Notes: generated from the letters alone by a model not told the origin. 64,000 nt of DNA from a virus (IMGVR_UViG_3300021197_001233:1-64000), one strand, 5' to 3'. Positions 4,828 to 54,018 are shown, counted from the first letter of the stretch. Translations and numbers: made by a program.

Positions 4828-4835
4828 TATATTTG
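4828..4835 (+). promoter_or_regulatory. Late promoter -7 box, predicted leaderless start
   Basis: TATATTTG lies four bases before the ATG at 4840. In Bacteroidota the transcript starts only a few bases after this box, so the mRNA would begin at or next to the start codon. Confidence 0.6.
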
Positions 4836-4839
4836 CCTC

Positions 4840-5130
4840 ATGCTACTGATAAAGATCTCCGAGAGCGGTTATCGCAGAGACAGTGAGGACCAGTTCAACG
4901 ACCACAATGTGATTATGACGGGCTGCATCTCTATGGATGCGGTAGATTACCCCGTTGTAGGTATGGACGAGATAGGTAACATCAAGATTATGATGCCTGG
5001 GTCCAAGCACAACTTTGAAGGGGAGAGGGTACTGGAGGTACCGCTTAAGAATGACGAGTACAACTTCATGAGTCAGGACGACATCTATGAGCTTGTTCGC
5101 ATTAAGGCTGCAGAAACGGGTTTCTCTTAA
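4840..5130 (+). CDS. Hypothetical protein, 96 residues, first late gene
   Basis: Starts MLLIKISESGYRRDSEDQFN and ends AAETGFS. It looks like a small soluble beta-rich protein. Its ATG sits four bases after the promoter box TATATTTG, with no room for a leader. It is followed after 18 bases by a second gene with its own promoter of the same kind. No family recognised; the position suggests a virion or assembly role. Confidence 0.7.
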   Translation: MLLIKISESGYRRDSEDQFNDHNVIMTGCISMDAVDYPVVGMDEIGNIKIMMPGSKHNFEGERVLEVPLKNDEYNFMSQDDIYELVRIKAAETGFS

Positions 5131-5135
5131 TCCCG

Positions 5136-5143
5136 TATATTTG
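5136..5143 (+). promoter_or_regulatory. Late promoter -7 box
   Basis: TATATTTG, five bases before the ATG at 5149; predicted leaderless transcript. Confidence 0.6.
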
Positions 5144-5148
5144 TACTC

Positions 5149-5889
5149 ATGGACATCATCAAGGATATCGGGAAATCTCTGAACTTTAAAGAGCGCTATG
5201 ACGATCTTGAGCGTACAGGGATGGAGGATTATGATAGAAAGGAGTGCAAGGAGCTACGTGAGCTAAGTAAGAGCGGGGCACCGCTTTCAGAATCACAGAA
5301 AGAGACCCTTCACTACTGTGATACTATCAGGGGTGAGCGTCAAAGGGCTGCTATGAACCTCGGAACATCAGCCGCGAAGATTGGGGTGGGGGCATTTACT
5401 GGGAATGTTAATATGATTACTCAAGGCGTCGGTGATGCTGGAGGATATATCATGTCTGAGGCCCAGGAGGTAGACGGCCCTAACGATGGCATTGGCCAAA
5501 AGATCGGTAAGGAGGATTACATGAAGCTAGGTGCCGATGTCGTAAGCGGTGTTGGTGCATACGCCATGGGTAAGCAAGGAGCTGGTGGTGGCGAGGGTGG
5601 TGGCGTTCAGGATGTGGTGAATCAGGCAACGGGTGATACTGCTGGAGGCGCGGGGAATACATTTAATATGATGCAGACCCTTATGCAAAACCCTCAGTTT
5701 ATGCAGATGATGCAGCAGCAGATGCAGGGTCAGGAGGGAGCTCAGAATGCATTTCAGACAGGTGGCGTACAGGGGGGGCTGAACTTCTTGTCTAACTACG
5801 GCGTCAATCAGAACGCTAATGGATCAAAACTAAAGCGGTCAACACGTGACCACGACTACATCAAAGGAAACACTAGAGGCTATAAATAA
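5149..5889 (+). CDS. Gly/Gln/Met-rich probable internal virion protein, 246 residues
   Basis: Begins MDIIKDIGKSLNFKERYDDL. Residues 1-70 are charged and helical; the middle is small-residue-rich (KIGVGAFTGNVNMITQGVGD) like membrane-active or internal head proteins; the region near 170-210 is Met/Gln-rich (MMQTLMQNPQFMQMMQQQMQ). The C-terminus is basic (KLKRSTRDHDYIKGNTRGYK). It is followed by a decoration-like gene with a TAATG overlap. An ejected internal protein is my best guess; no family match is claimed. Confidence 0.6.
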   Translation: MDIIKDIGKSLNFKERYDDLERTGMEDYDRKECKELRELSKSGAPLSESQKETLHYCDTIRGERQRAAMNLGTSAAKIGVGAFTGNVNMITQGVGDAGGYIMSEAQEVDGPNDGIGQKIGKEDYMKLGADVVSGVGAYAMGKQGAGGGEGGGVQDVVNQATGDTAGGAGNTFNMMQTLMQNPQFMQMMQQQMQGQEGAQNAFQTGGVQGGLNFLSNYGVNQNANGSKLKRSTRDHDYIKGNTRGYK

Positions 5890-6359
5890 TGGCTACACTT
5901 ACAACAACTATTAAAGAAGAGCTAACGCTCAACGGCATCGAGAGGGGCTCAACAAACACCCTATCTATTACTGGGGTCAATGAGGTGTTGCAGCGTATGG
6001 TAACATGCCCTGCCAACCAGGACACAACGATAGCCACATTCAAGGCCGCTGTGAATACATCTGAAGGCGCTCTCGACCTTGACAATGTCAAGTACATCAG
6101 GGTGACTAATCTCGATAGCACCAATGAATTGGTTCTGTCTTTGCAGATCTCTGCGGCTGAGAATGGAACGGCGGATGCATCTACAAGCATCTTGGTGGCT
6201 GCGGGTAGAAGCTTTATCATGGGGTCTCCACATGACGGCATTGCTACGGACGATGACTCCACTACTGTCATCACCGACACAAACCTTAATGACCTGGAGA
6301 GTCTGATTGTGGACCCCAAGACTAGCAGCATAACAGTAGAGCTATTTATCGCAAGTTAA
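5889..6359 (+). CDS. Probable capsid decoration/head-fibre protein, 156 residues
   Basis: Begins MATLTTTIKEELTLNGIERG. Thr/Ser/Ala-rich beta pattern with alternating strands (KYIRVTNLDSTNELVLSLQI, SILVAAGRSFIMGSP, SSITVELFIAS). The order of strands resembles the two proteins at 19866-20683, where KVYIKN...GDFLFIPW and YLYIKN...GEFAFIPV occupy the same places. I infer a family of jelly-roll-like surface proteins on the capsid. Its start overlaps the preceding stop (TAATG). Confidence 0.6.
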   Translation: MATLTTTIKEELTLNGIERGSTNTLSITGVNEVLQRMVTCPANQDTTIATFKAAVNTSEGALDLDNVKYIRVTNLDSTNELVLSLQISAAENGTADASTSILVAAGRSFIMGSPHDGIATDDDSTTVITDTNLNDLESLIVDPKTSSITVELFIAS

Positions 6360-6366
6360 TACCGAT

Positions 6367-6374
6367 TATATTTG
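6367..6374 (+). promoter_or_regulatory. Late promoter -7 box
   Basis: TATATTTG, four bases before the ATG at 6379; predicted leaderless transcript. Confidence 0.6.
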
Positions 6375-6378
6375 CATC

Positions 6379-8007
6379 ATGCCAGGACTAAGAAAAATAA
6401 TGCAGCGGGGAACAAACAACCCCCTGTTCTTTCAGACTCTTCCATCTCAAACTCCGAAGCAGGTAAAGGAAGAGAAGATTCGGAAAAAGATAGATGAGGT
6501 GTACGGTAAGGGATATCAGGCCCCTTACGATGTCGATGGCGCTTACGGCCAGGAACCAAAAAGGAAGTCTGGCAACGCTGGCTTCAGAATGGTGAAAAAC
6601 AATCTAACAGGAAGACAGATGAAGATAGCAAAGCAGACTGCCCCGTTTGACGAGATCAATGGGGCCGACTTTACGAAGCTTCGCGAGGCGCTCATGGGTA
6701 GGGGCAGGGCCAATGCCAAGGTATATCAGGATGGTACTGGTTCAGGAGATCGAACGACCACTTCAGAGTACTTTGATCAGAGACGGGGTCAACAAGCACA
6801 AGCTCGTCGCGATAGTATGTCTTCTGGCCAACGCCTTGGTGAGGGTGTGTTCTCTCAGGCTGTTCAAAGCATGGATAGCAAAGCTCAGAGTGCCGTTGTT
6901 CCGTTTGCAAGAGAGATTGAAGGTGCCCTCGCCAATGAGAGTAAGTGGGCCGAGGATTTTGCTGAAGAGATTTCTGCAATGGGCTACAGTATGGATGATC
7001 TTAAGTCTGGCAAAGTCCCTGCTCACACTATTGCCTCTGTAACTGGAAGAAGCGGTCAAGCCGCCAAGTTGCTGAGAAGTTCGATGGTTAACCAAGGCGG
7101 TCTCGATATGAAGGATGCTAATTATCTGATTACGGGGCTGTCTAAGTTTGGCAGAAACATTGAGGACGGTATTATCAACGTCTCTGACATGGACAACATG
7201 ATGGGTGAACTTGGGTATACTTCTGATGATGCGGCATTTATGGGTGACGCAATATCTAAAGGCGGCCTGGGCGTAAGTCAGTTTAATACTATGCGAATGG
7301 AGGAGCTTGGCGAGGGTGGCGGTCAGAGAGATGTTTCTGGTGGTGTAGAGGCCTTCCCGAGCGCTAATGAGTTTAGAGCTTCTCAAAAGAAGAATACGAG
7401 TAGGGATGGCTCCTACAAAGGAGGGTATGGTAAAAACAACGTAACGTTTGGTAGAGAGAAGTTTAGAGAGACTGACCAGACAATGAGGCCTGACGAGGAT
7501 TTTCCAGCACAGGAGCTGCCACAGGAGGTGGTGCAGACTCAGCCAGATCCGATTGATCCAATTCAGGGCATGACTCCCGATCCTCAGCCCGTTGAAACAC
7601 CAAAGCAGATTATTGAGACGACCCCGCCGCCTCAGTTTGAGGAGAATCCTGATCCAGTTGTAGAGGAAAAGCCAGTCATCCGCGGCTGCATGGACCCAAA
7701 GTCCACGAATTACAACCCTAAGGCCACTCAGGATGATGGATCTTGTGCATACCCACAGGAAGAAGAGGAGACTCCATCAACTGGTAGATTTGGGCCTGCG
7801 TTGGATCTGTACGACTTCGAGCCGATGCCCTCAGATAAGTTGGGCACCGTGGACACTGGCGCTATGGGTAGATACAGCGATGCGATGCTTGGCTCTCAAA
7901 TGGCAGAAAGAGCTGGTGTTAATAGGATGGGATCTGCCCTCCGCGCTAAGCTTAACACCATGGGGTCGAGTAACCCTAGAGGCATGCGGTTTGTAAAGAG
8001 ACGATAA
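6379..8007 (+). CDS. Probable internal virion protein with Cys motif, 542 residues
   Basis: Starts MPGLRKIMQRGTNNPLFFQT. The first 330 residues are helical and charged; residues about 370-430 are Pro/Glu/Gln-rich (QELPQEVVQTQPDPIDPIQG). Around residue 435 is the motif GCMDPKSTNYNPKATQDDGS followed by CAY, a short Cys-bounded repeat common in secreted proteins of Bacteroidota. The C-terminus (SNPRGMRFVKRR) is basic. A terminator follows directly. Virion location is inferred from neighbours; the motif also occurs in the large tail protein at 28712-36070. Confidence 0.6.
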   Translation: MPGLRKIMQRGTNNPLFFQTLPSQTPKQVKEEKIRKKIDEVYGKGYQAPYDVDGAYGQEPKRKSGNAGFRMVKNNLTGRQMKIAKQTAPFDEINGADFTKLREALMGRGRANAKVYQDGTGSGDRTTTSEYFDQRRGQQAQARRDSMSSGQRLGEGVFSQAVQSMDSKAQSAVVPFAREIEGALANESKWAEDFAEEISAMGYSMDDLKSGKVPAHTIASVTGRSGQAAKLLRSSMVNQGGLDMKDANYLITGLSKFGRNIEDGIINVSDMDNMMGELGYTSDDAAFMGDAISKGGLGVSQFNTMRMEELGEGGGQRDVSGGVEAFPSANEFRASQKKNTSRDGSYKGGYGKNNVTFGREKFRETDQTMRPDEDFPAQELPQEVVQTQPDPIDPIQGMTPDPQPVETPKQIIETTPPPQFEENPDPVVEEKPVIRGCMDPKSTNYNPKATQDDGSCAYPQEEEETPSTGRFGPALDLYDFEPMPSDKLGTVDTGAMGRYSDAMLGSQMAERAGVNRMGSALRAKLNTMGSSNPRGMRFVKRR

Positions 8008-8028
8008 CAATCCCAGTTTACTGGGTAA

Positions 8029-8054
8029 AAAAAAGGCCCCTTTCGGGGCCTTTT
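8029..8054. terminator. Bidirectional intrinsic terminator
   Basis: GGCCCC-TTTC-GGGGCC (8035-8050) is flanked by an A-run on the left and TTTT on the right, so it can stop rightward transcription after 8007 and leftward transcription after the gene ending at 8068. Confidence 0.8.
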
Positions 8055-8067
8055 CTGTTTATCTGCA

Positions 8068-8526: not shown

Positions 8527-8527
8527 C

Positions 8528-8707: not shown

Positions 8708-8789
8708 TTGTGATTGGATTGAATTTTGTAACTTTGTCTAAATCGCTGATCTCAGTATATGGAGAACTTTCGATACTCACAAATTTGGC

Positions 8790-10306: not shown

Positions 10307-10554
10307 ACAAGTACGTAATAGTAAGCAAGTCGGAGTTAGACGACCCCAACACCACAATAGATTTTTCTCAACTGTTGTATCCAGATAAGGACAAGTTGAG
10401 GTATAGTATTGCTGGCGATAAATCAGTCATTAAGTACGAGACTCCGATTCCTAGTTTCTTTTCTGGCAAGACTACATATACCTTATCTCAGATAACCCCA
10501 ATACTTGAGGGTAGTGAGTGGACCGAGGTTATAACAGAGGACGATATACTTTAA
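10303..10554 (+). CDS. Hypothetical protein, 83 residues
   Basis: Begins MNKYVIVSKSELDDPNTTID and ends TEVITEDDIL. Overlaps the LamG gene stop by four bases (ATGA), so it is probably co-expressed and may be an accessory to that protein. Strand-rich; no recognised domain. Its stop converges with the leftward gene at 10551. Confidence 0.65.
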   Translation: MNKYVIVSKSELDDPNTTIDFSQLLYPDKDKLRYSIAGDKSVIKYETPIPSFFSGKTTYTLSQITPILEGSEWTEVITEDDIL

Positions 10555-10973
10555 TCTTCTAGTTCCCCGTAGAACCTCTGCACCAGAAGCCTTCCTTTTT
10601 GCGTTAGAGAGTATCTAACTCTATAGTTGAACTTAGTCTCATCCCTAAAAAGGTGATCCTCATACTTTTGTGAGGGGGTGAGCTTGTCAAAGTATTTGTA
10701 CACGTAACCAGCCTTAACTAGTTCGTATACAATGCGTTCGCCTATTTTTTTGGCAGAAGAATACCCGTAATCCTTGGCCGCATAAGACAGAGTCCAGAAC
10801 TCTAAATCGTAGGCCCACAGCATGAACATGAGCTCTTTTTCGAAGATGTCTCTCTTCACGCAGAACTCATTTACACTCTTTCTCAGATACTTAAGGTGAT
10901 TGTTTTTTACGTACCTTTGGTTAAGCTTAGAGAACTCGCGGAACATCTTCCCCCTTGATTTCTTTGCTGGCAT
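10551..10973 (-). CDS. Winged-helix-like DNA-binding protein, 140 residues
   Basis: Basic N-terminus MPAKKSRGKMFREFSKLNQR. Residues about 45-135 look like a winged helix of the MarR/PadR type: helices ELMFMLWAYDLEFWTLSYAA and AKKIGERIVYELVKAGYVYK, then a wing-like FNYRVRYSLTQKGRLLVQRF, where xYxLTxKGxxL is typical of these repressors. It is encoded against the late genes with its own promoter, so it is probably expressed early and may regulate the switch. Family assignment is by pattern only. Confidence 0.6.
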   Translation of the reverse strand: MPAKKSRGKMFREFSKLNQRYVKNNHLKYLRKSVNEFCVKRDIFEKELMFMLWAYDLEFWTLSYAAKDYGYSSAKKIGERIVYELVKAGYVYKYFDKLTPSQKYEDHLFRDETKFNYRVRYSLTQKGRLLVQRFYGELED

Positions 10974-10990
10974 TGAAATAAATTATACCG

Positions 10991-10998
10991 CAAAGATA
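10991..10998 (-). promoter_or_regulatory. Leftward early-type promoter -7 box
   Basis: Minus strand TATCTTTG, 17 bases before the ATG of the winged-helix gene at 10973. It has the TATCTTTG form of the early promoters rather than the TATATTTG form of late ones, and it abuts the start of the rightward gene at 10998. Confidence 0.6.
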
Positions 10999-11288: not shown

Positions 11289-11289
11289 A

Positions 11290-13230: not shown

Positions 13231-13307
13231 CCGCAAGTATCCCCTCAAGCTTATACCTTGTAGAAAGGGTAACTGGTCACATGTGGGTTCGAGTCCCACC
13301 TTGCGGA
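13231..13307 (+). tRNA. Aberrant tRNA-like gene with 8-base anticodon-type loop
   Basis: A perfect 7-bp acceptor stem CCGCAAG/CTTGCGG, discriminator A, and a perfect T-arm GTGGG-TTCGAGT-CCCAC. Between them no normal D-arm can be drawn; TACCT pairs with GGGTA (one G-T pair) around the 8-base loop TGTAGAAA. It begins immediately after the HNH stop. It may be a degraded tRNA or an unusual tRNA with a large anticodon loop. The amino acid cannot be assigned. Confidence 0.45.
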
Positions 13308-13323
13308 CAAGGTGAACGTGTCG

Positions 13324-13331
13324 TATATTTG
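13324..13331 (+). promoter_or_regulatory. Late promoter -7 box
   Basis: TATATTTG, four bases before the ATG at 13336; predicted leaderless transcript that would continue through the Arg tRNA into terL. Confidence 0.6.
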
Positions 13332-13596: not shown

Positions 13597-13670
13597 GCAC
13601 CTGTAGCTCAACAGGATAGAGCAGCGCACTTCTAATGCGCAGGTTTCAGGTTCGAGTCCTGACAGGTGTA
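13597..13670 (+). tRNA. tRNA-Arg, anticodon TCT
   Basis: A full cloverleaf: acceptor GCACCTG/CAGGTGT (first pair G-T), D-arm AGCTC...GAGC, anticodon stem GCGCA/TGCGC with loop CTTCTAA, T-arm TCAGG-TTCGAGT-CCTGA, discriminator A, no encoded CCA. It reads AGA/AGG-type Arg codons, which are frequent in the phage genes here. Confidence 0.9.
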
Positions 13671-13683
13671 CAAATTAAATACA

Positions 13684-13815
13684 ATGGCAAAGGTTCAAGA
13701 ATCCACGTACAAGTCCAAAAGAGTGAGACGAAAAGGAGTTCACTCAAAGAATAAGTCCTCAAAGAATAAGTCCTCAAGGAACTACACTAAGCGATATGCT
13801 GGTCAGGGTCGATGA
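13684..13815 (+). CDS. Small basic protein next to terminase, 43 residues
   Basis: Reads MAKVQESTYKSKRVRRKGVH and ends NYTKRYAGQGR, with a tandem repeat SKNKSSKNKSS. About one third Lys/Arg and without hydrophobic core, so probably nucleic-acid binding and disordered. Similar short proteins with a GQGR end occur near packaging genes of Bacteroidota phages. It overlaps terL by 20 bases. Confidence 0.6.
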   Translation: MAKVQESTYKSKRVRRKGVHSKNKSSKNKSSRNYTKRYAGQGR

Positions 13816-15910
13816 CTATGATGAGGACGTTATTGCAATTTGCCCCAAGGCTACAACGGGAAACGTTGTTTCGATTGGTGATTTATACATTGCACTTCCC
13901 TCTCAGCCTCCCGAAGAGAAAATTGAAGGATATGGACGTCCAAACAACTTGCAGTTGTGGGAAAGGGTTCCTATGCCATCGGAGCTGTCTAGGATTAAGA
14001 CTATGGACGAGTGGAGTGAGATGCCAAGAGAATTCAGACAGAAATTTTCTCCGTATATCGAGGAGGAGTTTCGTCGTCGGCGTGAAGGCTTTTGGTTTTT
14101 CAATAACGGTAGGCCTACGTATATTACGGGTAGGCACTACATGATGCTTCAATGGACCAAGATAGATATAGGATTTCCTAACTATCTTGCGTTCCAGCGC
14201 GAAATTTTTCTACATATGGCCGCGTGTGAGGCAGACCCGAGATGTATCGGGCAGCTCTATACGAAGTGCAGGCGTAGCGGGTACACGAATATCTGCTCGT
14301 CTGTGCTTTTGGACGAAGCAACGCAGGTCAAGGATAAACTTCTCGGGATTCAGTCGAAGACGGGTAAGGATGCGCAAGAGAATATATTCATGAAGAAGGT
14401 GGTGCAAATGTTTCGTCACTACCCCTTCTTCTTTAAACCAATTCAAGATGGTACCACGAATCCACGCATGGAGCTGGCTTTTCGCGAGCCGAGTAAGAGA
14501 ATCACGAAGAAGAATAAGAGTGCGCAGAAGGGCGAGGCTCTTAATACGGTAATTAACTGGAAGAACACCACCAACAACGCCTACGATGGTGAAAAGCTTC
14601 ATCTTATGTATTTGGATGAGGCTGGCAAGTGGGAGAAGCCTTCGGATATTAGGGATGCATGGAGAATCCAGCGTACTTGCCTAATCGTCGGTAGAAAAAT
14701 CGTGGGCAAGGCACTCGTGGGATCTACTGTAAACCCCATGGATAAGGGCGGTAGAGAGTACAAGGAGCTTTGGCGAGACTCAGACCCCAGCGAAAGAAAC
14801 GCCAACGGAAGAACTATATCAGGGCTATACCGCCTATTTATCCCTGCCCAGAAGTCTCTTGAAGGGTTCTTCGATGTCTTTGGCAATGCGGTTTCTTATG
14901 ATCCCCCGTCCTTAATAGAGGGGCTAGATGGGGAGGACATTCTTATTGGCGCGAAGACTTACTTGAAGAATGAGAGAGAGAGTTTGAAAGGTGATCCTTC
15001 TGAGCTTAATGAGGTTACGAGGCAGTTCCCGTTTACCACAGATGAGGCATTTCGAGACAGTATCGAGGGTAGCGTCTTCAATATCGGTAAGATCTACGAG
15101 CAGGTACAGTATAATGATGACCTATTCCCGAACCCTGTCGTTCGAGGCAACCTTATCTGGAAGGACGGCATCAAAGACGGAAAGGTTGTTTTTTCTCCTG
15201 ACGCAAAGGGTAGGTTTAGAATATCCTGGATGCCACCAGAAGATCTGAGAAATGTTTCTAAGTTCGATCGAGGCAAACGCATTGCGCCTAATGCGGTGCT
15301 GGGTGTCGGCGGTGTTGACTCCTACGACCTTGACGCCACCGTCGATGGTCGAGGGTCAAAAGGAGCGCTACACCTGTATAACAAGTTTCACATAGAGCAC
15401 CCATCGAACATGTTTGTTCTGGAGTATGCGTCTCGTCCGCCTTTAGCTAAGATTTTCTACGAAGATTGCTTAATGGCTGCGTTTTTCTACGGTTACCCAT
15501 TATTGATTGAGAACAACAAGTATGGAATTGCAAGATACTTTGAATCAAGGGGTTACGATGGCTACCTAATGGATAGGCCATCTCACCTGTCGTCAGGGTC
15601 GTCTAATTTTAAGGTCAAGACTAAAGGCATCCCGTCGAACTCTCAGGATGTCATTCAGTCCCACGCCCATTCAATCGAGTCTTATGTGCATGACCATGTA
15701 GGCATAAATAGAGATACTGGTGACTACGGAAACATGTACTTCAACAGAACCCTAGAAGACTGGATTGGTTTTCAGATAGACAACAGGACTAAGTTTGACC
15801 TTACAATATCTTCTGGGCTTGCGCTTTTGGCTGCGCAAAAAACAAAATCAAAACCAAAGAAAGACTTCTCTGAGTCTAAATTTTTTAGGCGTTATAAGCC
15901 CATAGGATGA
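13796..15910 (+). CDS. terL: Terminase large subunit
   Basis: 704 residues. The ATPase half has a degenerate P-loop region (YTKCRRSGYTNICSS) and a Walker B HLMYLDEAGKW in which DE is the catalytic pair. The C-terminal nuclease half shows AVLGVGGVDSYDLDA with metal-binding Asp residues and a late LLIENNKYGIARYFESRGYD strand-helix. Size and motif spacing fit the motor protein that cuts concatemers and pumps DNA into the head; the variant P-loop is like those of crAss-like phages. No small terminase was recognised. Confidence 0.9.
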   Translation: MLVRVDDYDEDVIAICPKATTGNVVSIGDLYIALPSQPPEEKIEGYGRPNNLQLWERVPMPSELSRIKTMDEWSEMPREFRQKFSPYIEEEFRRRREGFWFFNNGRPTYITGRHYMMLQWTKIDIGFPNYLAFQREIFLHMAACEADPRCIGQLYTKCRRSGYTNICSSVLLDEATQVKDKLLGIQSKTGKDAQENIFMKKVVQMFRHYPFFFKPIQDGTTNPRMELAFREPSKRITKKNKSAQKGEALNTVINWKNTTNNAYDGEKLHLMYLDEAGKWEKPSDIRDAWRIQRTCLIVGRKIVGKALVGSTVNPMDKGGREYKELWRDSDPSERNANGRTISGLYRLFIPAQKSLEGFFDVFGNAVSYDPPSLIEGLDGEDILIGAKTYLKNERESLKGDPSELNEVTRQFPFTTDEAFRDSIEGSVFNIGKIYEQVQYNDDLFPNPVVRGNLIWKDGIKDGKVVFSPDAKGRFRISWMPPEDLRNVSKFDRGKRIAPNAVLGVGGVDSYDLDATVDGRGSKGALHLYNKFHIEHPSNMFVLEYASRPPLAKIFYEDCLMAAFFYGYPLLIENNKYGIARYFESRGYDGYLMDRPSHLSSGSSNFKVKTKGIPSNSQDVIQSHAHSIESYVHDHVGINRDTGDYGNMYFNRTLEDWIGFQIDNRTKFDLTISSGLALLAAQKTKSKPKKDFSESKFFRRYKPIG

Positions 15911-15915
15911 TTTGT

Positions 15916-15923
15916 TATATTTG
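15916..15923 (+). promoter_or_regulatory. Promoter -7 box before portal
   Basis: TATATTTG, 17 bases before the portal ATG at 15941. Unlike most late boxes in this window it leaves a short leader. Confidence 0.55.
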
Positions 15924-15940: not shown

Positions 15941-18358
15941 ATGTACAGCAACTCTAAGGCCAACAAATCTTTCCCTGATCCTCTGCTGCCTTCTGAAAAA
16001 AAGGAGGACAAGAGGTATGGGATGAAATACGCTAAGGCGATCGAGGCCCAGTGGAGAGGATCATCCGATAAGAACGCACTTCAAAAGAGAAGAAGAAAGA
16101 TATTTCAAAGAAACAGGAAATACTCTTTAGGCATTCAAGATACCTCTATCTACAAGAGGCTCTTGAATAATGTTGATCCAAACTCAGGGGACGGAAGTTT
16201 GATGAATCTGGACTACACCCCAGTACCGATTCTTCCTAAGTTCGTTCGTATTGTGGTAAACAAAATTCTTTCAAAGAATCCATACCCAAATCTAGAGGCT
16301 ATTGATCCGTTCTCTTCTTCAGAAAAGAACAACTACAAGCGAAGAGTAAAGAATCAAGTTGAGCTTAGGGACGAGCTGAAGAAGCTAAAGGACACTACGG
16401 GCGGCCTTGTTTTGGGTGATGATCCAGACAAGTTGCCCGAGACTATGGAGGAGGCTGAAATTTATTTGGACAGTAACGTCAAGACTGACGGTGAGATTTC
16501 TGCTCAGATTGCAACAAACCTCACTCTGTCATGGAACAACTTTAATGATGGGACATTTAGGCGCTGTGTAAATGATATCGTCGCGCTTGGAATGTCCGTC
16601 GTAAAAAGGTCCAACGATCCCAATGTAGGTATTCGCGTTGAATACGTAGATCCAGAAAAGTTTGTGCATAGCTACACAGAGGACCCTTCTTTTGATGACC
16701 TAGTTTATGCTGGTCACATTAAGACGATCACAATCTCTGAGCTAAAGCGAATGGCAGGGGATCAGCTTTCAGAGGAGGATTACGAAAAGATTTCTCAAAA
16801 GTCTAAGGGTAGTGGCGTAAGCGGTAACTCTACACAATACGATGACCTTGGAGATAGGACTATGTACGAGTATGACGAGTACACCATTGACCTACTTGAG
16901 TTTGAGTTTTTGACCGTAGACACTATGTTCTTTGAAGAGAAGGAGAATAAGTTTGGCAACAGCAACTTCTACTATCAGGGCTTCGGTGAGAAAGGCAGCA
17001 AGGACAGTGTTTTTGAGGCGTCTCCAGAGAAGCTTCAAATTGAGTGTATTTATGGTGGGGTTTACATCATGGGAACCGATCATGTGATCAACTACGGCAA
17101 ACAGACAAATATGCCTAGGAACATCCATGATTTGTCTAGGGCTAAGCTTTCATACTCTGTTGTTTCTACGAACATCAACAGGATGATGCCTAAGTCTATG
17201 GTTGATAGCTGCGTTGGCTTTGCCGACATGCTTCAGCTCACTCACCTTAAGATTCAACAGGCCATTGCAAAGGCCAAGCCAGATGGATTAATCATTGACA
17301 TTGAGGGCCTAGAAAACGTTCAGCTTGGCAAAGGCGGCGAGCTTCAGCCGCTCGATCTACACGATATCTATGAGCAGACGGGTGTCTTTTACTACAGAAG
17401 CAAGAATCCAGACGGAACGGGTCAGGCCCCACCAATTAGGGAGATTGGCAACGCCATTAGGAACATCAACGAGCTTATCGCCCTATACAACCACTACCTA
17501 AGGCTGATTAGGGATACTACAGGCATCAATGAGGCCATGGATGCTTCCTCGCCTAAGGGTGACGCTTTGGTTGGGGTCAGGCAGCAGGCTATTGCCGCAG
17601 GCAACAACGCTATCTACGACATCACCAATGCGTCTATGATCTTGTACAAAAAGGTCTGTAGCGACGTTGTTAAGTGCCTCCAGATTATTCCCGAAGGCTC
17701 TGTTATCTCTAAGGCCTATGAGAACGCTATTGGTGAGGAGAATATGGCAGCTTTGACGTCGTTCAAAGACCTGCCTATGTTCAACTTTGGCGTTCAGGTT
17801 GTAAAGGAGATGGAGACCGAGGACAAGCAGTATCTCGAACAGAGTATCCAGGTGGCGCTTGGCCAGAAAGAGATTGATCTAGAGGACGCCCTTATTGTAA
17901 GAAATATCAAAGATGTGAATCAAGCCGAGCGTCTTCTTATGGTGAAGCGTAAAAATCGCCAGAAGGAGCAGGCTAAGATTGCTCAGCAAAACTCTCAGCA
18001 ACAGGCTCAGGTGGCTCAGCAGGCAGCTCAGACTGCATCACAGGCCAAGCAGCAAGAGCTTCAGATAGAGGCGCAGCTTGAGATGCAAAAGATTCAGGCT
18101 AAGACACAGGCTGAGATGGAACTAGAGAAAGTTAAGCACGAGCACAGAAGGGAGATCGAAATGATTAGAGCCCAGGCAACTCTTGGGTTTAGGACCGAGG
18201 ACCAAGAGTTTAGAGAGAAGCTAGAGACCATGAAGGAAGAAGGTAAAGAATCTCGTGTTGATCAGCAGGCCTCGCTTACTAGTAAACTTATCGCGCAGCG
18301 TCAAGGCGAAGGCGGTCGTTTTGACAGCATGGATGAAAACATTGAAAACAGCCTATAA
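15941..18358 (+). CDS. Portal protein
   Basis: 805 residues, starting MYSNSKANKSFPDPLLPSEK. The middle follows the portal fold: PNVGIRVEYVDPEKFVHSYT, then SRAKLSYSVVSTNINRMMPK, and the long helix region NAIRNINELIALYNHYLRLI, TTGINEAMDASSPKGDALVG, VRQQAIAAGNNAIYDITNAS typical of podovirus and crAss-like portals. The C-terminal 150 residues are a Gln-rich coiled coil (QQAQVAQQAAQTASQAKQQE), probably the barrel or core-binding extension. It forms the dodecameric DNA channel at the head vertex. It overlaps the next gene by one base. Confidence 0.85.
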   Translation: MYSNSKANKSFPDPLLPSEKKEDKRYGMKYAKAIEAQWRGSSDKNALQKRRRKIFQRNRKYSLGIQDTSIYKRLLNNVDPNSGDGSLMNLDYTPVPILPKFVRIVVNKILSKNPYPNLEAIDPFSSSEKNNYKRRVKNQVELRDELKKLKDTTGGLVLGDDPDKLPETMEEAEIYLDSNVKTDGEISAQIATNLTLSWNNFNDGTFRRCVNDIVALGMSVVKRSNDPNVGIRVEYVDPEKFVHSYTEDPSFDDLVYAGHIKTITISELKRMAGDQLSEEDYEKISQKSKGSGVSGNSTQYDDLGDRTMYEYDEYTIDLLEFEFLTVDTMFFEEKENKFGNSNFYYQGFGEKGSKDSVFEASPEKLQIECIYGGVYIMGTDHVINYGKQTNMPRNIHDLSRAKLSYSVVSTNINRMMPKSMVDSCVGFADMLQLTHLKIQQAIAKAKPDGLIIDIEGLENVQLGKGGELQPLDLHDIYEQTGVFYYRSKNPDGTGQAPPIREIGNAIRNINELIALYNHYLRLIRDTTGINEAMDASSPKGDALVGVRQQAIAAGNNAIYDITNASMILYKKVCSDVVKCLQIIPEGSVISKAYENAIGEENMAALTSFKDLPMFNFGVQVVKEMETEDKQYLEQSIQVALGQKEIDLEDALIVRNIKDVNQAERLLMVKRKNRQKEQAKIAQQNSQQQAQVAQQAAQTASQAKQQELQIEAQLEMQKIQAKTQAEMELEKVKHEHRREIEMIRAQATLGFRTEDQEFREKLETMKEEGKESRVDQQASLTSKLIAQRQGEGGRFDSMDENIENSL

Positions 18359-18783: not shown

Positions 18784-18896
18784 TGTCTAGTGTAACTGTA
18801 AATAGGCCTACGTTCTATCAAATTACTGTAAGCCCTGCTTCTTTATATTTGCTAACGGAAAGCAAGCCAACGACTTACATCATAACTAGACCTTAA
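18783..18896 (+). CDS. Hypothetical peptide, 37 residues
   Basis: Reads MSSVTVNRPTFYQITVSPAS and ends TTYIITRP. Beta-prone, no charged clusters. Its ATG overlaps the previous stop and its TAA overlaps the next ATG. An internal promoter box (TATATTTG at 18844) is embedded in its codons for LYL. Confidence 0.55.
   Translation: MSSVTVNRPTFYQITVSPASLYLLTESKPTTYIITRP
18844..18851 (+). promoter_or_regulatory. Internal promoter -7 box
   Basis: TATATTTG within the 37-residue gene, 44 bases before the ATG at 18896. It could raise expression of the basic protein cluster 18896-19834 independently of the portal transcript. Confidence 0.4.
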
Positions 18897-19838: not shown

Positions 19839-19846
19839 TATATTTG
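19839..19846 (+). promoter_or_regulatory. Promoter -7 box before decoration genes
   Basis: TATATTTG, 19 bases before the ATG at 19866; leaves a short A-rich leader. It probably supplies the high level of mRNA needed for decoration, scaffold and capsid proteins. Confidence 0.6.
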
Positions 19847-24820: not shown

Positions 24821-24828
24821 TATATTTG
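24821..24828 (+). promoter_or_regulatory. Promoter -7 box
   Basis: TATATTTG, 15 bases before the ATG at 24844. The preceding terminator isolates this unit from the capsid genes. Confidence 0.6.
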
Positions 24829-26981: not shown

Positions 26982-26987
26982 CAGATA

Positions 26988-27010
26988 GCCGCCCTTCGGG
27001 GCGGCTTTTT
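26988..27010 (+). terminator. Intrinsic terminator
   Basis: GCCGCCC-TTCG-GGGCGGC (26988-27005) followed by TTTTT; a perfect 7-bp GC stem with a UUCG tetraloop. Confidence 0.9.
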
Positions 27011-27018
27011 GTTTTTCG

Positions 27019-27026
27019 TATATTTG
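27019..27026 (+). promoter_or_regulatory. Late promoter -7 box
   Basis: TATATTTG nine bases after the terminator T-run and four bases before the ATG at 27031; predicted leaderless transcript for the neck/tail operon. Confidence 0.6.
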
Positions 27027-27030: not shown

Positions 27031-27828
27031 ATGATAAGCGTTATTGACGTATACAGAACCCTCGTTGATTATTGCAACAAGGATCAGAAGGGTTTTGTCA
27101 CACCCGAAGTGTTCAATTCGTTTGCGTCCTTAGCCCAGAAAAAGATCTACAACTCATTCTTTTCTGCTGTAGCTACAGCCAAGGGTGTCCGCTTGAACCA
27201 AACAGACGGAAGCAGAGAGTTCTCTACGAACAAATTCATCAAAGAGGACCTGTCTAGATACATTAAAAAGGTGCGTCTTGCGTCTTACTCAGTGGGCAAT
27301 CAATACGGATATGACAGCCCCTCTGACGGCCCACAGCCTACCACAAACACATCTGGGGTAATTGGGTCATCTAGATTTAAAAAACCAAAGGATTTAGGTA
27401 GGATTATATCCCTGTCAAATCAATACAAGAACCTGGTTGAGCTCGTCTATAACGACGACGATATAAACAACATCCTCAGGAGCAATCTATCTAGACCAAG
27501 TGTAAACTTTCCAGTTGCACTTATTGGTAAGGACATCGAGGTGTTCCCTAGTGACGCGACAAACGGGGAGCTGTCGCCAGAGGTCATCACTATGTCGTAC
27601 TACAGACAGCCTAGATCGGTATACGTAATGGGATATGGTGAATATGCATCAGGTGACGTGGATGGGAGCAGTGAGCCTGGGTATGTAGAGAAAGCAAACG
27701 CTCCAGATCCAATAAATTGTAGAGACTTCGATCTGCCCGAGCACTATAAGAATGAGCTCGTAGAGACCATTGCTGCATATATCGGGATCAGATTGAGAGA
27801 TCCAATTCTTCAAAACAAACCACAGTAA
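27031..27828 (+). CDS. Head-tail connector/ring protein, 265 residues
   Basis: Begins MISVIDVYRTLVDYCNKDQK. Helical N-terminal part (PEVFNSFASLAQKKIYNSFF), a middle with IGKDIEVFPSD and SPEVITMSYYRQPRSVYVMG, and a C-terminal helix ELVETIAAYIGIRLRDPILQ. This order matches ring/adaptor proteins located just before the tail-tube gene in crAss-like and related podoviruses. It would stack beneath the portal. Assignment rests on pattern and position. Confidence 0.65.
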   Translation: MISVIDVYRTLVDYCNKDQKGFVTPEVFNSFASLAQKKIYNSFFSAVATAKGVRLNQTDGSREFSTNKFIKEDLSRYIKKVRLASYSVGNQYGYDSPSDGPQPTTNTSGVIGSSRFKKPKDLGRIISLSNQYKNLVELVYNDDDINNILRSNLSRPSVNFPVALIGKDIEVFPSDATNGELSPEVITMSYYRQPRSVYVMGYGEYASGDVDGSSEPGYVEKANAPDPINCRDFDLPEHYKNELVETIAAYIGIRLRDPILQNKPQ

Positions 27829-38058: not shown

Positions 38059-38066
38059 TAATTTTG
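38059..38066 (+). promoter_or_regulatory. Late promoter -7 box
   Basis: TAATTTTG, five bases before the ATG at 38072; predicted leaderless transcript for the internal/ejection protein genes. Confidence 0.5.
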
Positions 38067-48000: not shown

Positions 48001-51000
48001 AGTACAGACTTGAGGATATCATGCCAGACTACTCCATGGCCATGGGTACAAGGGAGGTTACAGATCCAGAGACTGGTGAGAAGACTCGCGTGCCAGCACG
48101 CCGTCGCCGCTTGAGTTCAGCTGTGGCTGCGGCTACAAGAGATGCCGAGGGGCCAATGAAAGACTTCGAGGCCAAGGTCAGGGAGAAGGTGTCCAATCAG
48201 GCCGCCAAGAATGTGTTCAAGGGTGTCGTCAATATCAACTACGGAGACGTAGGGGCGATGGAGGAGGACATCTACATGGGTAGCAAGTCAGCAGTTCAGA
48301 GACCATCCGCCACGACGGACATTGCTATGAATGCTATGGAGTCTAGAGAGGGAAGTGTCTTTGAGTCTAGGGCTGAGGATGCACCGACTCCAGGAAGACC
48401 TGACGGTCAGTTCCAGCAGAGAGATCAGACCAGATTTGGTAGATTTAAAGCCAAGTGGATTCGCAGGCTGCAGGATAAGTACAGCGACATCATGGGCTTG
48501 CAGGAGGATGTAGAGACATTCTTGGGCAAAGCCGTGAGAGAGGACGAGGACTTCAAGATGGCCGAGGAGCTCATGTATGGCAAGACAGCGAGCGACCTCA
48601 AGAAGCTTGATCAAAAGATCGAAAGGCTCACAGACAACATAAAGGCCAACGGGGTCAACGTGGGTGAGCTTACCGATTACCTCTACGCTCTCCACGCCAA
48701 GGAAAGGAACGACGTCATCTTTGAAAGAGACGGTGTTGAGAACGGCAGTGGTATGTCGAATGCAGAGGCCTCGGCAATCCTTGACGGGATCTCTGAGGGC
48801 AAGAGGGCTGCCTTAGACAGCGCCCTGAAGATCGTAAGAGAGATTCAACAGGACACTAGAAGCACGATGGTAGAGTTTGGGCTGGAGACAGCCGAGACTG
48901 TTGATGCGTGGGAGAGCCTGTTCGAGAACTACGTACCGCTTTCGGGTATTGCTACTGACGAGTTCAGCAGTGATAAGACCGCCTACCCAACAGGCGGTGC
49001 TGGTATGCAGGTACGAGGCCCTATGACCAAGAGGGCTGCGGGTAGAAAGAGCAAGGCGGACAACCTCGTGGCTCAGATCATTGCGCAAAACTCTGCCGTA
49101 AAGATCCAGGCCAGAAAGAACGAGGCGCTTGGAACGCTTCACACCCTCATTACAAACAATCCAAACCCAGCAATCTGGGAGATCGTTGAGGACGCTAAGT
49201 TCGGAGACCCGTCTGTTGTGCCAGTGAGAATTGGTGGCAGGCAGGAGTTCATCAAGTTCACTGAGCCTCAGCACGCTGAGACGTTAAAGAACATGAACAT
49301 CCCGAAGACGGTGTGGTTGGCCAAGGTGCTTTCGCCTCTCAACAACTGGCTAAGACGCTCATTTACAACGCTTAACCCCGAATTTGTAATCTCCAACTTC
49401 TCAAGGGATATCCAGTCTGCACTTTTCAATGCAGCTGCTGAGTCTGAGATTGAAGGCGGTCAGATACTTGGGGCACAGGTTATGGGCGACATGGCAAGGA
49501 TGGTTGGGCCATCTATGAAGGCTTTGTTCAAAGAGACTAATCCCAACTCACTTGGCAAACTGTTTAAGGAGAATCCAATCATTGGTAAGTACTACCAGGA
49601 GTTTGTTGAGGACGGCGGGCAGACTGGATGGGGATATCAGAAGAACCTCCAGGAGATAGCTGCAGATCTAGAAAGATCCACAACAGATAAGTCTCGGGCG
49701 CAGGAAGTGCTTGGTGGTGTGAGGGAGAACACAGTAGACATGGTGGAGGGGGTCAACGATGCATTTGAGAATGCGATTAGGCTGTCGTCATATATTGCCG
49801 CAAGAGAGAACGGAATAAGCAGATCCAAGGCCGCACAGTTTGCGAAAAACATCACGGTGAACTTTAACAAGCACGGTGAGTACGGTCAAGTTGCAAACCA
49901 GCTCTACCTATTCTTCAACGCATCGGTTCAGGGTACCTCAAGACTCGGTAGATCTCTTGTCACACTCAAGCCGCCCAAGGCTCCCGACGGGTCATCCCGT
50001 GAGTGGTATCAGAGAATTAACACCGCACAGAAGATGGCGGCTGGACTGACTGTATTCTCAGCGATGCTTGCCCAGGTGGGTAGAGCCATGTCTGACGAGG
50101 ACGAGGATGGCACCCTGTACTGGGATAAGATTCCAGACTACGTCAAAGAGAGAAACCTCGTCGTTATGTTTGACGGGAAGAACTACTTCAAGATACCGCT
50201 TCCTTATGGTTTCAACATGTTTGCCAATCTGGGTACAGGGATGGTGGATCTTGCGGCAGGGGCTAAGTCTTGGGATGAGACGGGATGGTTCTTGGCCAAC
50301 TCGTTCCTTAGCTCGTTCTCCCCGATCAGCTACGGGCAGTCAAGAGACCTTTTCACCTACGGCACCAAGGCTGTCGTGCCTACAGCACTTAAGCCAGCCA
50401 TTGAGGTAGCTACGAATGAGTCGTATTTCGGAGGTCCAGTGTATGCAGAGCAGCTGCCATTCGGCGCTCCTAAGCCAGAGTCGCAGATGTCGTTTAAATC
50501 ACCTCGTGCCGTACAGGACTTCTTTACATGGATGAACGATGCTACGGGTGGATCTGCTCAGGTACCAGGGGATGTAGATATCAACCCCGACAAGTTTTGG
50601 CACGTATTCGACTACTTTATTGGTGGCGCAGGACAATTTGTGGGCAGGACCGCATCCACAGCTAGGGACGCGGTAGTTAAAGCCACGAATGATGAGCTTG
50701 AGGTCTCGTTCAATGATGTCCCGCTCTTGCGTAAGATTTACGGCGAGCCCTCCAAGTATTACGATATGGAGAAGTTCAAGGAGCGCGAAGTGGTGATCAA
50801 GCAGCTTATGAGAGAGGCGAAGGACCCTGATGCGAGGCGTCTTGGAGAGAACAGATACAAAGGCGTAGGAACTCTTGACAAAGCGTTGAAGGCGGTAAAT
50901 AAGCGGATGAAGCTTATCAGAAAGGCCAAGCAAAACGCCAGAAACATTAAGGACTACGCTGAAAGACAGATTAGGATTCAAGAGCTTATGGATATGGAGC

Positions 51001-51056: not shown

Positions 51057-51477
51057 GATTAGAGATACTAAGCTCGGTGGCTGGTTGAGAGACAAGGCAC
51101 CGAAGATTCTAGATACTGTGGGCGATCTACTTCCTGATAGAGGTGCGCTCGGGGTTGTGAAGAATTTACTGGATAAGGAGCCTGGTGTTGATCCTGCTGA
51201 GGCTAAGGCTATAGTGGATGCTGAAGTGCAGTTCCAGAATAATGTAACGGAGAGGTGGAAGGCCGATATGAGCAGCGATGTAAAGCTGGCCAAGTACATC
51301 AGGCCAGTGACGCTTATCTGCCTTATGGTTATGTTCATGGCTACAATGGTTGCAGACAGCATGGATTCATGGCCATTCAACGTGAAAGATTCGTACGTAT
51401 CTTTGCTTGAAATCTTGATGCTCACCGCTTTCGGCGCATACTTCGCAGGAAGGACGATCGAGAAGTCCAGAAAATGA
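51037..51477 (+). CDS. Holin of the 3-TM gene-transfer-release type, 146 residues
   Basis: Begins MSEKKTKIRDTKLGGWLRDK. The C-terminal half has the family signature: ERWKADMSSDVKLAKYIRP followed by membrane helices VTLICLMVMFMATMVADS and SLLEILMLTAFGAYFAGRTI, ending EKSRK. It would open the inner membrane to release the endolysin at 8887-9366. It overlaps the end of the giant polyprotein gene by 20 bases and the next gene by four. Confidence 0.8.
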   Translation: MSEKKTKIRDTKLGGWLRDKAPKILDTVGDLLPDRGALGVVKNLLDKEPGVDPAEAKAIVDAEVQFQNNVTERWKADMSSDVKLAKYIRPVTLICLMVMFMATMVADSMDSWPFNVKDSYVSLLEILMLTAFGAYFAGRTIEKSRK

Positions 51478-52184
51478 GGATTATATCAGACGATACAAAG
51501 TTGCCACGCCGAAAGAAGCGCAGGAATGAGGATTCAAACATGGAGCCTCAGTCCGAAAGAGAGCAGAGAGAATGGAACCTTTCGGCGGCAGCAGCCAATA
51601 TGCAGAATAGATTCATTGATCCTCAGCTCGCTAAGGAGGGCTTGGTAGATCCAACCCTTATGACAGAGGCTGACCCGCAGGCTGCATCGTTTATTGAGGA
51701 AGAGCTTTTTCCTTCTGTTGGGTTTAATCCTGAGGGAGGTCAGAATGCATCTAAGTATGCATGGTCTGCTGCTACGGTAAGTGACCTCGCGTCAGCCTTT
51801 GACCCGTCATTTCAAAAAAGCGCTAGACACTCTGACTATATAAGAAGGGGATTTCAGGGTGAGGGCAACTACGAGTCGGACAAGATATCTAAAAGGACTG
51901 ATTTCAAACCAGGGGATATCCTTTTTAAAGGCAGGGTGGATGGTCAGGGCAATCCCCTCGGGCCTCAGACCTATAAGCAGTTTAAAAAAGACGCCAAAGG
52001 TAAGGGGGAGTTTGGTCAAGAGGAAGGGTATGGATCTCACTCCGACATCATCGTGGGGTCTGGTACGGACTCGCGCGGTAAATACTACGAAGTTCAGGGC
52101 GGTAACGTGGGCGATAAGCTCAGTGTAAAACGACTCTATGCCAATGAGCTTGCAAAAAAATACGCAGGAAGACTTACTCAATAA
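51474..52184 (+). CDS. DUF2272-like (NlpC/P60-fold) protein, 236 residues
   Basis: Begins MRIISDDTKLPRRKKRRNED. Residues 80-225 contain SKYAWSAATVSDLASAF, HSDYIRRGFQGEG, DFKPGDILFKGR and YGSHSDIIVG followed by YYEVQGGNVGDKLSVKR, the order seen in DUF2272 cysteine-peptidase-like proteins, where W-S-A-A and S-H-x-D-I-V flank the active site. The expected Cys is not evident, so activity is uncertain. With the holin next door, a cell-wall role at lysis or entry is likely. Confidence 0.6.
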   Translation: MRIISDDTKLPRRKKRRNEDSNMEPQSEREQREWNLSAAAANMQNRFIDPQLAKEGLVDPTLMTEADPQAASFIEEELFPSVGFNPEGGQNASKYAWSAATVSDLASAFDPSFQKSARHSDYIRRGFQGEGNYESDKISKRTDFKPGDILFKGRVDGQGNPLGPQTYKQFKKDAKGKGEFGQEEGYGSHSDIIVGSGTDSRGKYYEVQGGNVGDKLSVKRLYANELAKKYAGRLTQ

Positions 52185-52191
52185 TAGAGAC

Positions 52192-52401
52192 ATGATAGAC
52201 AACTTGACTCATTTTGAATTTTTAACAGTGGCAGGGGCCTTGGTAATGGGGTGGATTAAATTTCAGTCTGACTACAATAAGCTCAGCTCAAGGGTGCATG
52301 CACTAGAAGCCGACAGCGCTGAGTTTAAGGCTGACGTAAAGCAAATGATAAAGGACATCCAGGAGATCAAGGTTCTTCTGGCCAAGAATCAGATGCAATG
52401 A
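52192..52401 (+). CDS. Membrane-anchored coiled-coil protein, 69 residues
   Basis: I choose the ATG at 52192 (MIDNLTHFEFLTVAGALVMG), eight bases after the previous stop. One N-terminal hydrophobic segment (FEFLTVAGALVMGWIKF) is followed by a coiled coil (LSSRVHALEADSAEFKADVK). Topology resembles an inner-membrane spanin (Rz-like) or a holin partner. It is the first of three such small genes overlapping by four bases each. Confidence 0.6.
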   Translation: MIDNLTHFEFLTVAGALVMGWIKFQSDYNKLSSRVHALEADSAEFKADVKQMIKDIQEIKVLLAKNQMQ

Positions 52402-52679
52402 ATATAGACTCTAAGATTGTTACAGGACTTGCTGGAACCCTTCTTTTGGGTGTCTGTGGTTGGATTCTAAACTCTACGCTGGAGATCCAAAAGGATATAG
52501 TTGAGGTAAGAATCCAAACGGAATCTATGCGGGAGACATTATCCAAGGTGTACGAAGAAAACTGTCCGTACTGTGTACACGCTGCCCATAGTAGCTTATC
52601 ACAACACCCACTGCTGGGCCCAACTATGAAGCATTCTCATAGACACGTTGGTAGCGAAATTGTAGATGTAAACGAATGA
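52398..52679 (+). CDS. Membrane protein with CxxC/His-rich tail, 93 residues
   Basis: Begins MNIDSKIVTGLAGTLLLGVC with a membrane helix to about residue 27, a short coiled coil, then ENCPYCVHAAHSSLSQHPLL and GPTMKHSHRHVGSEIVDVNE. The CPYCVHAAH...H...HSHRH arrangement could bind zinc or another metal. Located between two other single-helix proteins after the holin. Function unknown; a lysis or envelope role is inferred. Confidence 0.6.
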   Translation: MNIDSKIVTGLAGTLLLGVCGWILNSTLEIQKDIVEVRIQTESMRETLSKVYEENCPYCVHAAHSSLSQHPLLGPTMKHSHRHVGSEIVDVNE

Positions 52680-52984
52680 AGATTGACGACAATACAGATC
52701 TTGGAATCAACATTAAGTGGCTCGTACAGATTGTCGTTGGAGTTGGAGCTGCAGTTACGCTATACTTTACCCTGATGTCTGCACTGTCTCAGCTTGAGAT
52801 AGAAACCATGCGCCACAATCAAGAGATCGAACTCAACTCAGAGTTCAGGATCAAGTGGCCAAGGGGGGAAATGGGTAGTCTTCCTGATGACGCTGAGCAG
52901 AACCTTAGGTTGAATCACCTAGAAAGAGACATAGACCAGCTTCAGGTGCTTGTCGATGAGCTGCGTCAAAAGGATTGTAAATGA
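52676..52984 (+). CDS. Membrane-anchored coiled-coil protein, 102 residues
   Basis: Begins MKIDDNTDLGINIKWLVQIV; one hydrophobic helix (LVQIVVGVGAAVTLYFTLMS) then a long charged helix ending LERDIDQLQVLVDELRQKDC. Type II topology with a periplasmic coiled coil resembles an inner-membrane spanin. It follows the previous gene with an ATGA overlap. No lipoprotein spanin partner is adjacent. Confidence 0.6.
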   Translation: MKIDDNTDLGINIKWLVQIVVGVGAAVTLYFTLMSALSQLEIETMRHNQEIELNSEFRIKWPRGEMGSLPDDAEQNLRLNHLERDIDQLQVLVDELRQKDCK

Positions 52985-52993
52985 TGCAATAAT

Positions 52994-53605
52994 ATGGCAA
53001 GAGAAAACGTATTTCCTGTATGTCAAAGCGGAGGAAGTAAGACATATATCGCTAAGGATAAGAAAGAAGGAGGTAAATATCGTTCTTCTGGGCCCATAAT
53101 TTACCGAGAAACTGAAGACCCAGATGTCGTATTTACTGAACACACCAACGGTAATTACTTAAATCAAGTTTTTTTTCTCTCAAAAAACAAGACGGAGTAT
53201 TTAATTGACCACACAGAGGCCCCTGAAACAGATCTTGTTGTAGTCAATGGGCAAGAATTTGCATCCCCGATTTTCGCCTATCAGGAACTTAATAACATTA
53301 GTTATGTAGACCTATGGCTCGACATAAACAACGAACAAAAAAAAGATTTGGCGCCTATTCCTGGCTCAATTATATGCATAGGGAGAAAGAAGAACAGCGA
53401 CGCTGCGTGGAGTGGCTCAACGTCTTTGTTTCTGTGGCTTTTATTTTCATACCAGGACCCCAAAAACAACGCTCCGTTTAAAGACGATACAGCGGCGCTT
53501 GCTTCAAACAAACTTGACGGTGCGGTCATAGAGGACGGGGAGTGGGCCACATACATGTGGATTGGTACGCGCTTTGTGTTCCTCGGCTCTAACAACTGGT
53601 ACTAA
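52994..53605 (+). CDS. Fibre-like paralogue A, 203 residues
   Basis: Begins MARENVFPVCQSGG and ends TRFVFLGSNNWY. N-terminus MARExVxPV and C-terminus WIGTRFVFLGSNNWY are shared with the genes at 54022 and 54612, while the middle is different. Near residue 125 is PGSIICIGRKK, matching GAIICIAAK in the third copy. A small beta-rich tail or capsid fibre with conserved ends for attachment and folding is likely. Confidence 0.65.
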   Translation: MARENVFPVCQSGGSKTYIAKDKKEGGKYRSSGPIIYRETEDPDVVFTEHTNGNYLNQVFFLSKNKTEYLIDHTEAPETDLVVVNGQEFASPIFAYQELNNISYVDLWLDINNEQKKDLAPIPGSIICIGRKKNSDAAWSGSTSLFLWLLFSYQDPKNNAPFKDDTAALASNKLDGAVIEDGEWATYMWIGTRFVFLGSNNWY

Positions 53606-53616
53606 ACACAATACAT

Positions 53617-53624
53617 TATATTTG
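53617..53624 (+). promoter_or_regulatory. Late promoter -7 box
   Basis: TATATTTG, four bases before the ATG at 53629; predicted leaderless transcript. It gives the last three fibre-like genes their own start. Confidence 0.6.
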
Positions 53625-53628
53625 CATC

Positions 53629-54018
53629 ATGCCACTACCACACTACAAAAAGAATGTCTTTCCATTGTTTGTGGACGACAAAGAGCCAGTTCAGGTCATT
53701 GATTCTGATGGTACAGACAAGGAATGGAACAAGAAGACAAGCAGAGTCCTCATTCAGCCAGACCCCGCAGGAGCTGTAAAGATCAAGCTCGGCAAGCCAG
53801 AGACTCCTGGGATCATGGTCGAGGTCGGTAAGGACGCTGGAAGTTTCTCTTGCATCGTAGTCCTTGGGGACTCTACTGATCAGTACGGACCATTCGATAA
53901 CGACGCTGACTTTAGAGAGGTCGAGCTTCAGTACGCGGGGGGCACTGAAGCCTCTGTGTTCACATGCTTCTGGAACGGAGAGAACTGGGTGCCGATTGGA
54001 TTGACTGCAACAACGTAA
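53629..54018 (+). CDS. Fibre-like distant paralogue, 129 residues
   Basis: Begins MPLPHYKKNVFPLFVDDKEP and ends with VFTCFWNGENWVPIGLTATT. NVFPL near the start and FxCFWNGENWVPIG near the end echo the NVFPV start and GxWxTLMxTGTRxVxxGS end of its neighbours, suggesting a shorter relative. The middle is a compact beta pattern (GSFSCIVVLGDSTDQYGPFD). A virion appendage is inferred. Confidence 0.6.
   Translation: MPLPHYKKNVFPLFVDDKEPVQVIDSDGTDKEWNKKTSRVLIQPDPAGAVKIKLGKPETPGIMVEVGKDAGSFSCIVVLGDSTDQYGPFDNDADFREVELQYAGGTEASVFTCFWNGENWVPIGLTATT

Follow-up and report, generated by a model that had tools for sequence, protein, structure and literature searches.

A predicted class of leaderless late mRNAs, alongside leadered ones, in a phage thought to infect Bacteroidota

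We analyzed a 64,000-nucleotide (nt) stretch of viral DNA (hereafter the window), which comprises all but the end of the 64,217 bases of the IMG/VR virus record IMGVR_UViG_3300021197_001233, and in which copies of the -7 promoter octamer TATATTTG lie either directly ahead of a start codon or well upstream of one. These late-strand promoters, which appear to be of the sigma-A type, probably give leaderless mRNAs at some genes and leadered mRNAs at others. Seven sites are best read as giving leaderless mRNAs, a prediction from the layout of box and start codon, and the contrast between leaderless and leadered promoters runs within the late genes.

Promoter boxes and start codons in the window

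The octamer TATATTTG occurs 11 times in the window, always on the plus strand, against 1.7 copies expected in dinucleotide shuffles, none of which reached 11. An ATG follows 4-5 nt past the box at 6 of the 11 copies, and the variant TAATTTTG at 38059 provides a seventh case. The pattern TATATTTG-N(2-7)-ATG gave six forward matches, no reverse matches and none for a reversed-pattern control. The -7 element TAnnTTTG (TAHHTTTG) is present at every site described here as TATATTTG, TAATTTTG or TATCTTTG. For TAHHTTTG boxes with a downstream open reading frame (ORF), the distances to the ATG were 4, 5, 4, 4, 4, 5 and 4 nt at seven sites and 15-50 nt at the other seven; a box at 51398, which lies within a gene, was excluded from this count.

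The seven boxes of the leaderless class all lie on the plus strand. They occupy positions 4828-4835 (4 nt before the ATG at 4840), 5136-5143 (5 nt before 5149; spacing 5 in 4/6 family members), 6367-6374 (4 nt before 6379; spacing 4 in 4/4 members), 13324-13331 (4 nt before 13336, the start of a small basic protein; spacing 4 in 32/39 members), 27019-27026 (4 nt before 27031, the start of a virion protein matching phrog_14543), 38059-38066 (the TAATTTTG box, 5 nt before 38072; spacing 5 in 5/8 members) and 53617-53624 (4 nt before 53629, a gene with no relative found in the contig set described below). An initial annotation of the window had proposed these seven ATG-adjacent promoters, giving the positions of the ATGs, and all of them were confirmed.

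That annotation omitted four leadered TATATTTG promoters on the same strand. The box at 15916-15923 lies 17 nt before the ATG of the portal gene (15941-18358, plus strand, matching phrog_6547), and its 103-member family is mostly found at 17-29 nt. Those at 18844-18851 (44 nt before the ATG at 18896), 19839-19846 (19 nt before 19866) and 24821-24828 (15 nt before 24844, directly past a terminator) are also leadered; all of the 34-member 19866 family lies at 16-31 nt, whereas the 18896 gene is leadered in the window and the majority of its relatives have the box at 4 nt. On the minus strand, TATCTTTG boxes were found at 589-596 and 4138-4145, on the early strand with leaders of 34 and 50 nt, and at 10991-10998, 17 nt before the ATG of the ORF at 10551-10973, in keeping with the leaders of 17-50 bases that had been described for early promoters.

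Spacing, start sites and coding starts in related contigs

We extended the comparison to 84 contigs (1.25 Mb), consisting of the window, five long records and 78 loci of the large terminase (TerL), whose gene lies at 13796-15910 on the plus strand of the window and matches phrog_6681; because these loci are centred on TerL, the TerL strand was sampled more heavily. Measured from TATATTTG to the first ATG of ORFs with 45 or more codons, the spacing was two-peaked, with 112 cases at 3-6 nt, spread over 27 leaderless families, 5 at 7-14 nt and 123 at 15-59 nt. The near-empty zone at 7-14 nt suggests selection against short leaders. With 168 octamer permutations as a control, TATATTTG had an ORF-starting ATG at 3-5 nt in 104 of its 284 copies; among the better or nearest permutations, ATATTTGT and GTATATTT are one-base shifts of TATATTTG, and TATTATGT (13/30) was rejected as a rival signal, being mostly one conserved protein-coding motif. 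Boxes with an ORF numbered 235 on the TerL strand and 5 on the opposite strand. On the TerL strand the octamer stands ahead of 26 leaderless and 14 leadered gene families, and any given family may be counted in both groups.

The window octamer is that of Bacteroidota sigma-A promoters (-7 TAnnTTTG or TAHHTTTG), from which the same start-site spacing would be expected (PMC6847099, PMC9723704). The -7 element of Flavobacterium johnsoniae spans -12 to -5, and 4 or 5 nt separate it from the start at probable promoters (PMC6847099); the box of F. psychrophilum has the same coordinates (PMC9723704). This published spacing places the predicted +1 on the A of the ATG where the spacer is 4 nt, and transcription is predicted to begin on the start codon, or no more than 1-2 nt away from it, at all seven window sites. 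The earlier proposal that transcripts begin a few bases past the box thus agrees with the published maps, and the spacing is conserved in relatives. At leadered TATATTTG promoters the letter at box+5 is not dictated by an ATG, and 81% of 111 such sites have an A there. The distinct portal leaders show this A in 36 of 40 cases, the leaders of the 19866 family in 23 of 27, and the leadered 27031 members in 38 of 46.

We also asked whether the proximal ATG is the start codon. No upstream in-frame ATG before a stop was present at 106 of the 112 leaderless TATATTTG sites, and when GTG and TTG were allowed as well, 71 of the 112 lacked any upstream in-frame start. In the window, six of the seven ATGs have no in-frame ATG, GTG or TTG upstream before a stop, the exception being 13336, with in-frame GTG codons 6 and 8 codons upstream. 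Among orthologs, substitutions in codons 2-12 fell at codon positions 1, 2 and 3 in 22, 16 and 61% of cases (mean of eight families), and the leaderless 27031 members showed 244, 183 and 615 changes at the three positions of codons 2-15 (615/1042 at the third). Since the third-position excess starts from codon 2, coding constraint begins at the proximal ATG, which points indirectly to the promoter-proximal AUG as the translation start.

The 27031 gene was traced to 79 contigs, yielding 71 distinct proteins of 31 to 81% identity. The -7 box is present in all of this ortholog set, and the distinct members fall into two groups, 25 with a spacing of 4 nt (21 members) or 5 nt (4 members) and 46 with one of 16-23 nt, so that the range of 6-15 nt is empty; L187 and L188, for which an upstream ATG had initially given a distance of 1 nt, were moved by hand to the ATG matching their relatives. 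The two spacing states require two changes on a quick maximum-likelihood tree. Leaderless members therefore have a fixed spacing, and that of leadered members drifts. Directly ahead of the 27019 box lies an intrinsic terminator hairpin with a T-tract (26987-27016, plus strand; fold -22.7 kcal/mol, z -6.0). The terminator-then-box layout is kept in genomes G001-G005 with different stem sequences and, as judged by eye, in most other loci of the 27031 family. Other promoters near the loci of this family gave just 5 sites with an ORF, too few for replication.

These comparisons bear on the proposal of the initial annotation that early genes are leadered and late genes leaderless. One part of it stands, in that TATATTTG is a late-strand feature, with 111 leaderless sites on the TerL strand and 1 on the opposite strand, and the early promoters at 596 and 4145, the two on which the early minus-strand evidence rests, are leadered. 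The late strand, however, holds both classes: the 14 leadered families on the TerL strand include those of the portal and 19866 genes, and the portal, 19866 and 24844 genes are leadered in the window itself. Because late-strand promoters are of both kinds, the early/late reading is too simple; its strict form is contradicted, and we consider it very unlikely.

Within the leadered portal family, a 4-codon mini-ORF is present in the leaders of L015, L020, L021, L022, L025, L027 and L030, starting 5-6 nt past the portal TATATTTG box, with a stop that overlaps the portal ATG (TAATG or TGATG). The portal leaders of other relatives contain longer mini-ORFs or none. The arrangement resembles a leaderless mini-cistron with coupling to the start of the portal gene.

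Proposed mechanism and alternative explanations

We propose that the late-strand genes are transcribed from promoters of the Bacteroidota sigma-A type whose -7 element is TATATTTG, with a host-type RNA polymerase starting at the A five or six bases past the box. Transcription by the host RNA polymerase has been suggested for the late genes of the phage crAss001 (PMC8375218), and we assume the same for the window phage. At about half of the window promoters the start A would be the A of the ATG, giving an mRNA with a leader of 0-1 nt whose 5′-terminal AUG the ribosomes must engage. At the remaining promoters the same A would open a leader about 11 nt long or longer, followed by ordinary Bacteroidota translation without a Shine-Dalgarno sequence, and leaders of intermediate length would be avoided. 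This predicts two modes of starting protein synthesis within one virus. Bacteroidota ribosomes do not use Shine-Dalgarno sequences, and their start-codon choice is poorly understood. These phages, in which the same promoter element either sits on the start codon or keeps some 15 nt or more away from it and in which the orthologs of one gene show both states, could supply natural matched pairs for comparing leaderless and leadered initiation in Bacteroidota. They would also provide a simple rule by which the starts of transcription and of translation can be located across a large group of uncultured environmental phages.

Several observations weigh against this interpretation. Leaderless mRNAs are rare in the likely hosts: mRNAs of F. 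psychrophilum are mostly leadered (median 24 nt) and 5.5% of its mapped mRNAs are leaderless, compared with 7 of 14 assigned window promoters at 4-5 nt (Fisher p about 6e-6, on classes that are box-based in the window and start-site-based in the host), and in Bacteroides thetaiotaomicron 3.7% of mRNAs have a leader of less than 10 nt. The box+5 A signal, whose counts include related sequences, is weaker when each of 19 families is counted once (0.66), although no other leader position has a higher A frequency, and a start one base further down (box+6 at a 4 nt spacer) would strip the A from the AUG. A -33 element is not evident, TTG falling within the -33 range at 3 of 15 window sites, although the same is true of F. 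johnsoniae promoters (PMC6847099); for that reason we also dropped the idea that its absence marks a phage-activated class of late promoters. Finally, all phages in the set are metagenome contigs with inferred hosts.

Genome compaction might account for the layout if promoters were squeezed into short gaps, so that leaderless mRNA would be a passive by-product requiring no dedicated mode of translation. Most leaderless sites do lie in short intergenic gaps, but the distance from the preceding stop codon to the box is similarly short in both classes and the two distributions overlap, and thus shortage of room is not by itself enough to account for the class. Selection on the position of the start codon is indicated instead by the scarcity of distances of 7-14 nt and by the frozen spacing of 4-5 nt. 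Compaction was accordingly dropped as a full explanation, and we regard it as rather unlikely to be the main one. It is also possible, but unlikely, that translation of these genes relies mainly on longer mRNAs reading through from the upstream late operon, with the leaderless mRNA as a minor isoform. This is plausible for 5149, 6379, 38072 and 53629, where gaps are short and boxes often lie 0-12 nt past the upstream stop. At 27031, on the other hand, the strong terminator directly before the box should limit read-through, and a terminator occupies this position in all six related genomes despite diverged stems; nor would translation from read-through mRNAs need a spacing frozen at 4-5 nt.

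The fixed position of the box just ahead of the ATG at 27 gene families would also be expected if TATATTTGNNNN were a translation-initiation signal beside the start codon rather than a promoter. Yet at other genes the same octamer, with the same box+5 A, stands 15-30 nt from the ATG, it matches the mapped Flavobacterium promoter element, and it comes after terminators, which makes this alternative extremely improbable. Starting from the promoter interpretation, leader absence might further define a regulatory class, in which infection would shift host initiation toward 5′-terminal AUGs and a subset of late genes would have a mode of translation unlike that of the host and of the phage's own leadered late genes; the 7-14 nt gap would then mark a mechanistic limit of Bacteroidota ribosomes between recognition of a 5′-terminal AUG and leadered initiation. 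We consider this extension quite doubtful.

Relation to known systems and other features of the window

Leaderless middle and late phage mRNAs are already known from the Thermus thermophilus phage phiYS40, most of whose middle and late mRNAs are described as lacking a leader in a review (PMC3594737, citing Sevostyanova et al. 2007). The likeness lies in leaderless phage transcripts of middle and late genes. The two phages differ in host phylum and promoter, in that the leaderless transcripts of phiYS40 were measured whereas those of the window phage are predicted, and in the mixture of leadered and leaderless promoters on the late strand of the window phage. A temporal program of the phiYS40 type, with leaderless middle and late genes and leadered early genes, does not fit the 14 leadered late-strand families. 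In Deinococcus-Thermus, a -10 motif adjoins ORFs with a specific spacing that gives leaderless mRNA (PMC12340547); there too the promoter element stands directly ahead of the start codon, but the genes are cellular and the motif (TANNNT) is different. To these precedents the present analysis adds a predicted leaderless class in phages whose hosts are probably Bacteroidota, a class marked by frozen spacing and a conserved A at the start site and with leadered orthologs available for comparison. We found no report of such a class in Bacteroidota phages in the open-licence literature, which does not prove its absence elsewhere.

The layout seems to be confined to a lineage. The crAss-like phages (crAss001 and the Cellulophaga phages phi38:1 and phi13:2) and Elemovirus have TerL proteins related to that of the window phage. 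In stretches of 42-50 kb read from each record, the 4-5 nt TATATTTG layout was absent from phi13:2, phi38:1, crAss001 and MW202828 and occurred once in elemoA; being absent or single in these five partly read records, it was rejected as a general crAss-like or Elemovirus property and looks lineage-specific. Nor does it look like a host-wide property. TATATTTG-N(4-5)-ATG, N(9-10) and N(18-19) were counted 693, 509 and 465 times in 58 bacterial genomes and 110, 16 and 37 times in the phage set, so that the 4-5 nt spacing is only mildly enriched in the bacteria (1.4 times N(9-10) and 1.5 times N(18-19)). These 58 genomes represent the order of a metagenome-assembled genome with a related TerL, whose link to the host is only a lead.

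No close relative of the window phage was found in the annotated phage collection. Its TerL is 46.8% identical to that of the metagenome podovirus MW202828, 39.6% to Flavobacterium Elemovirus and 34-37% to Cellulophaga phages, the nearest annotated phages, and gut crAss-like phages are weak TerL relatives. On the basis of these phage relatives and the promoter type, the host is probably a member of the Bacteroidota. The plus strand of the window carries the structural genes and the minus strand the primase/helicase and exonuclease genes. Among the window proteins scanned, a scan that covered part of the window, there was no translation factor, sigma factor or bS21. For a 144-amino-acid (aa) protein at 61048-61482 (minus strand), the match to the C-terminal helix-turn-helix of DnaA was below threshold (E 0.0009).

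Shortly before the 13324 box, a tRNA-like sequence with matching ends (GCCGCAA...TTGCGGAC) lies at 13231-13308 on the plus strand; ARAGORN did not call it, and the only tRNA that it called is a tRNA-Arg at 13597-13671. The minus-strand ORF at 10551-10973, which sits inside the late block, encodes a 140-aa protein with a weak PadR-like match (E 0.0076, under the Pfam cut-off), and its promoter spacing ranges from 3 to 23 nt across relatives. A further element, CAAACTTCAA, is present 8 times in the window, where 0.21 copies would be expected. Six of these form a minus-strand cluster (565-574, 1456-1465, 2741-2750, 3149-3158, 3394-3403 and 4100-4109), 4-12 nt ahead of the ATGs of successive small minus-strand genes. 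Minus-strand copies number 6 in G001 and 8 in G003, with none on that strand in G002, G004 and G005. CAAACTTCAA is possibly a leader or regulatory element of early genes.

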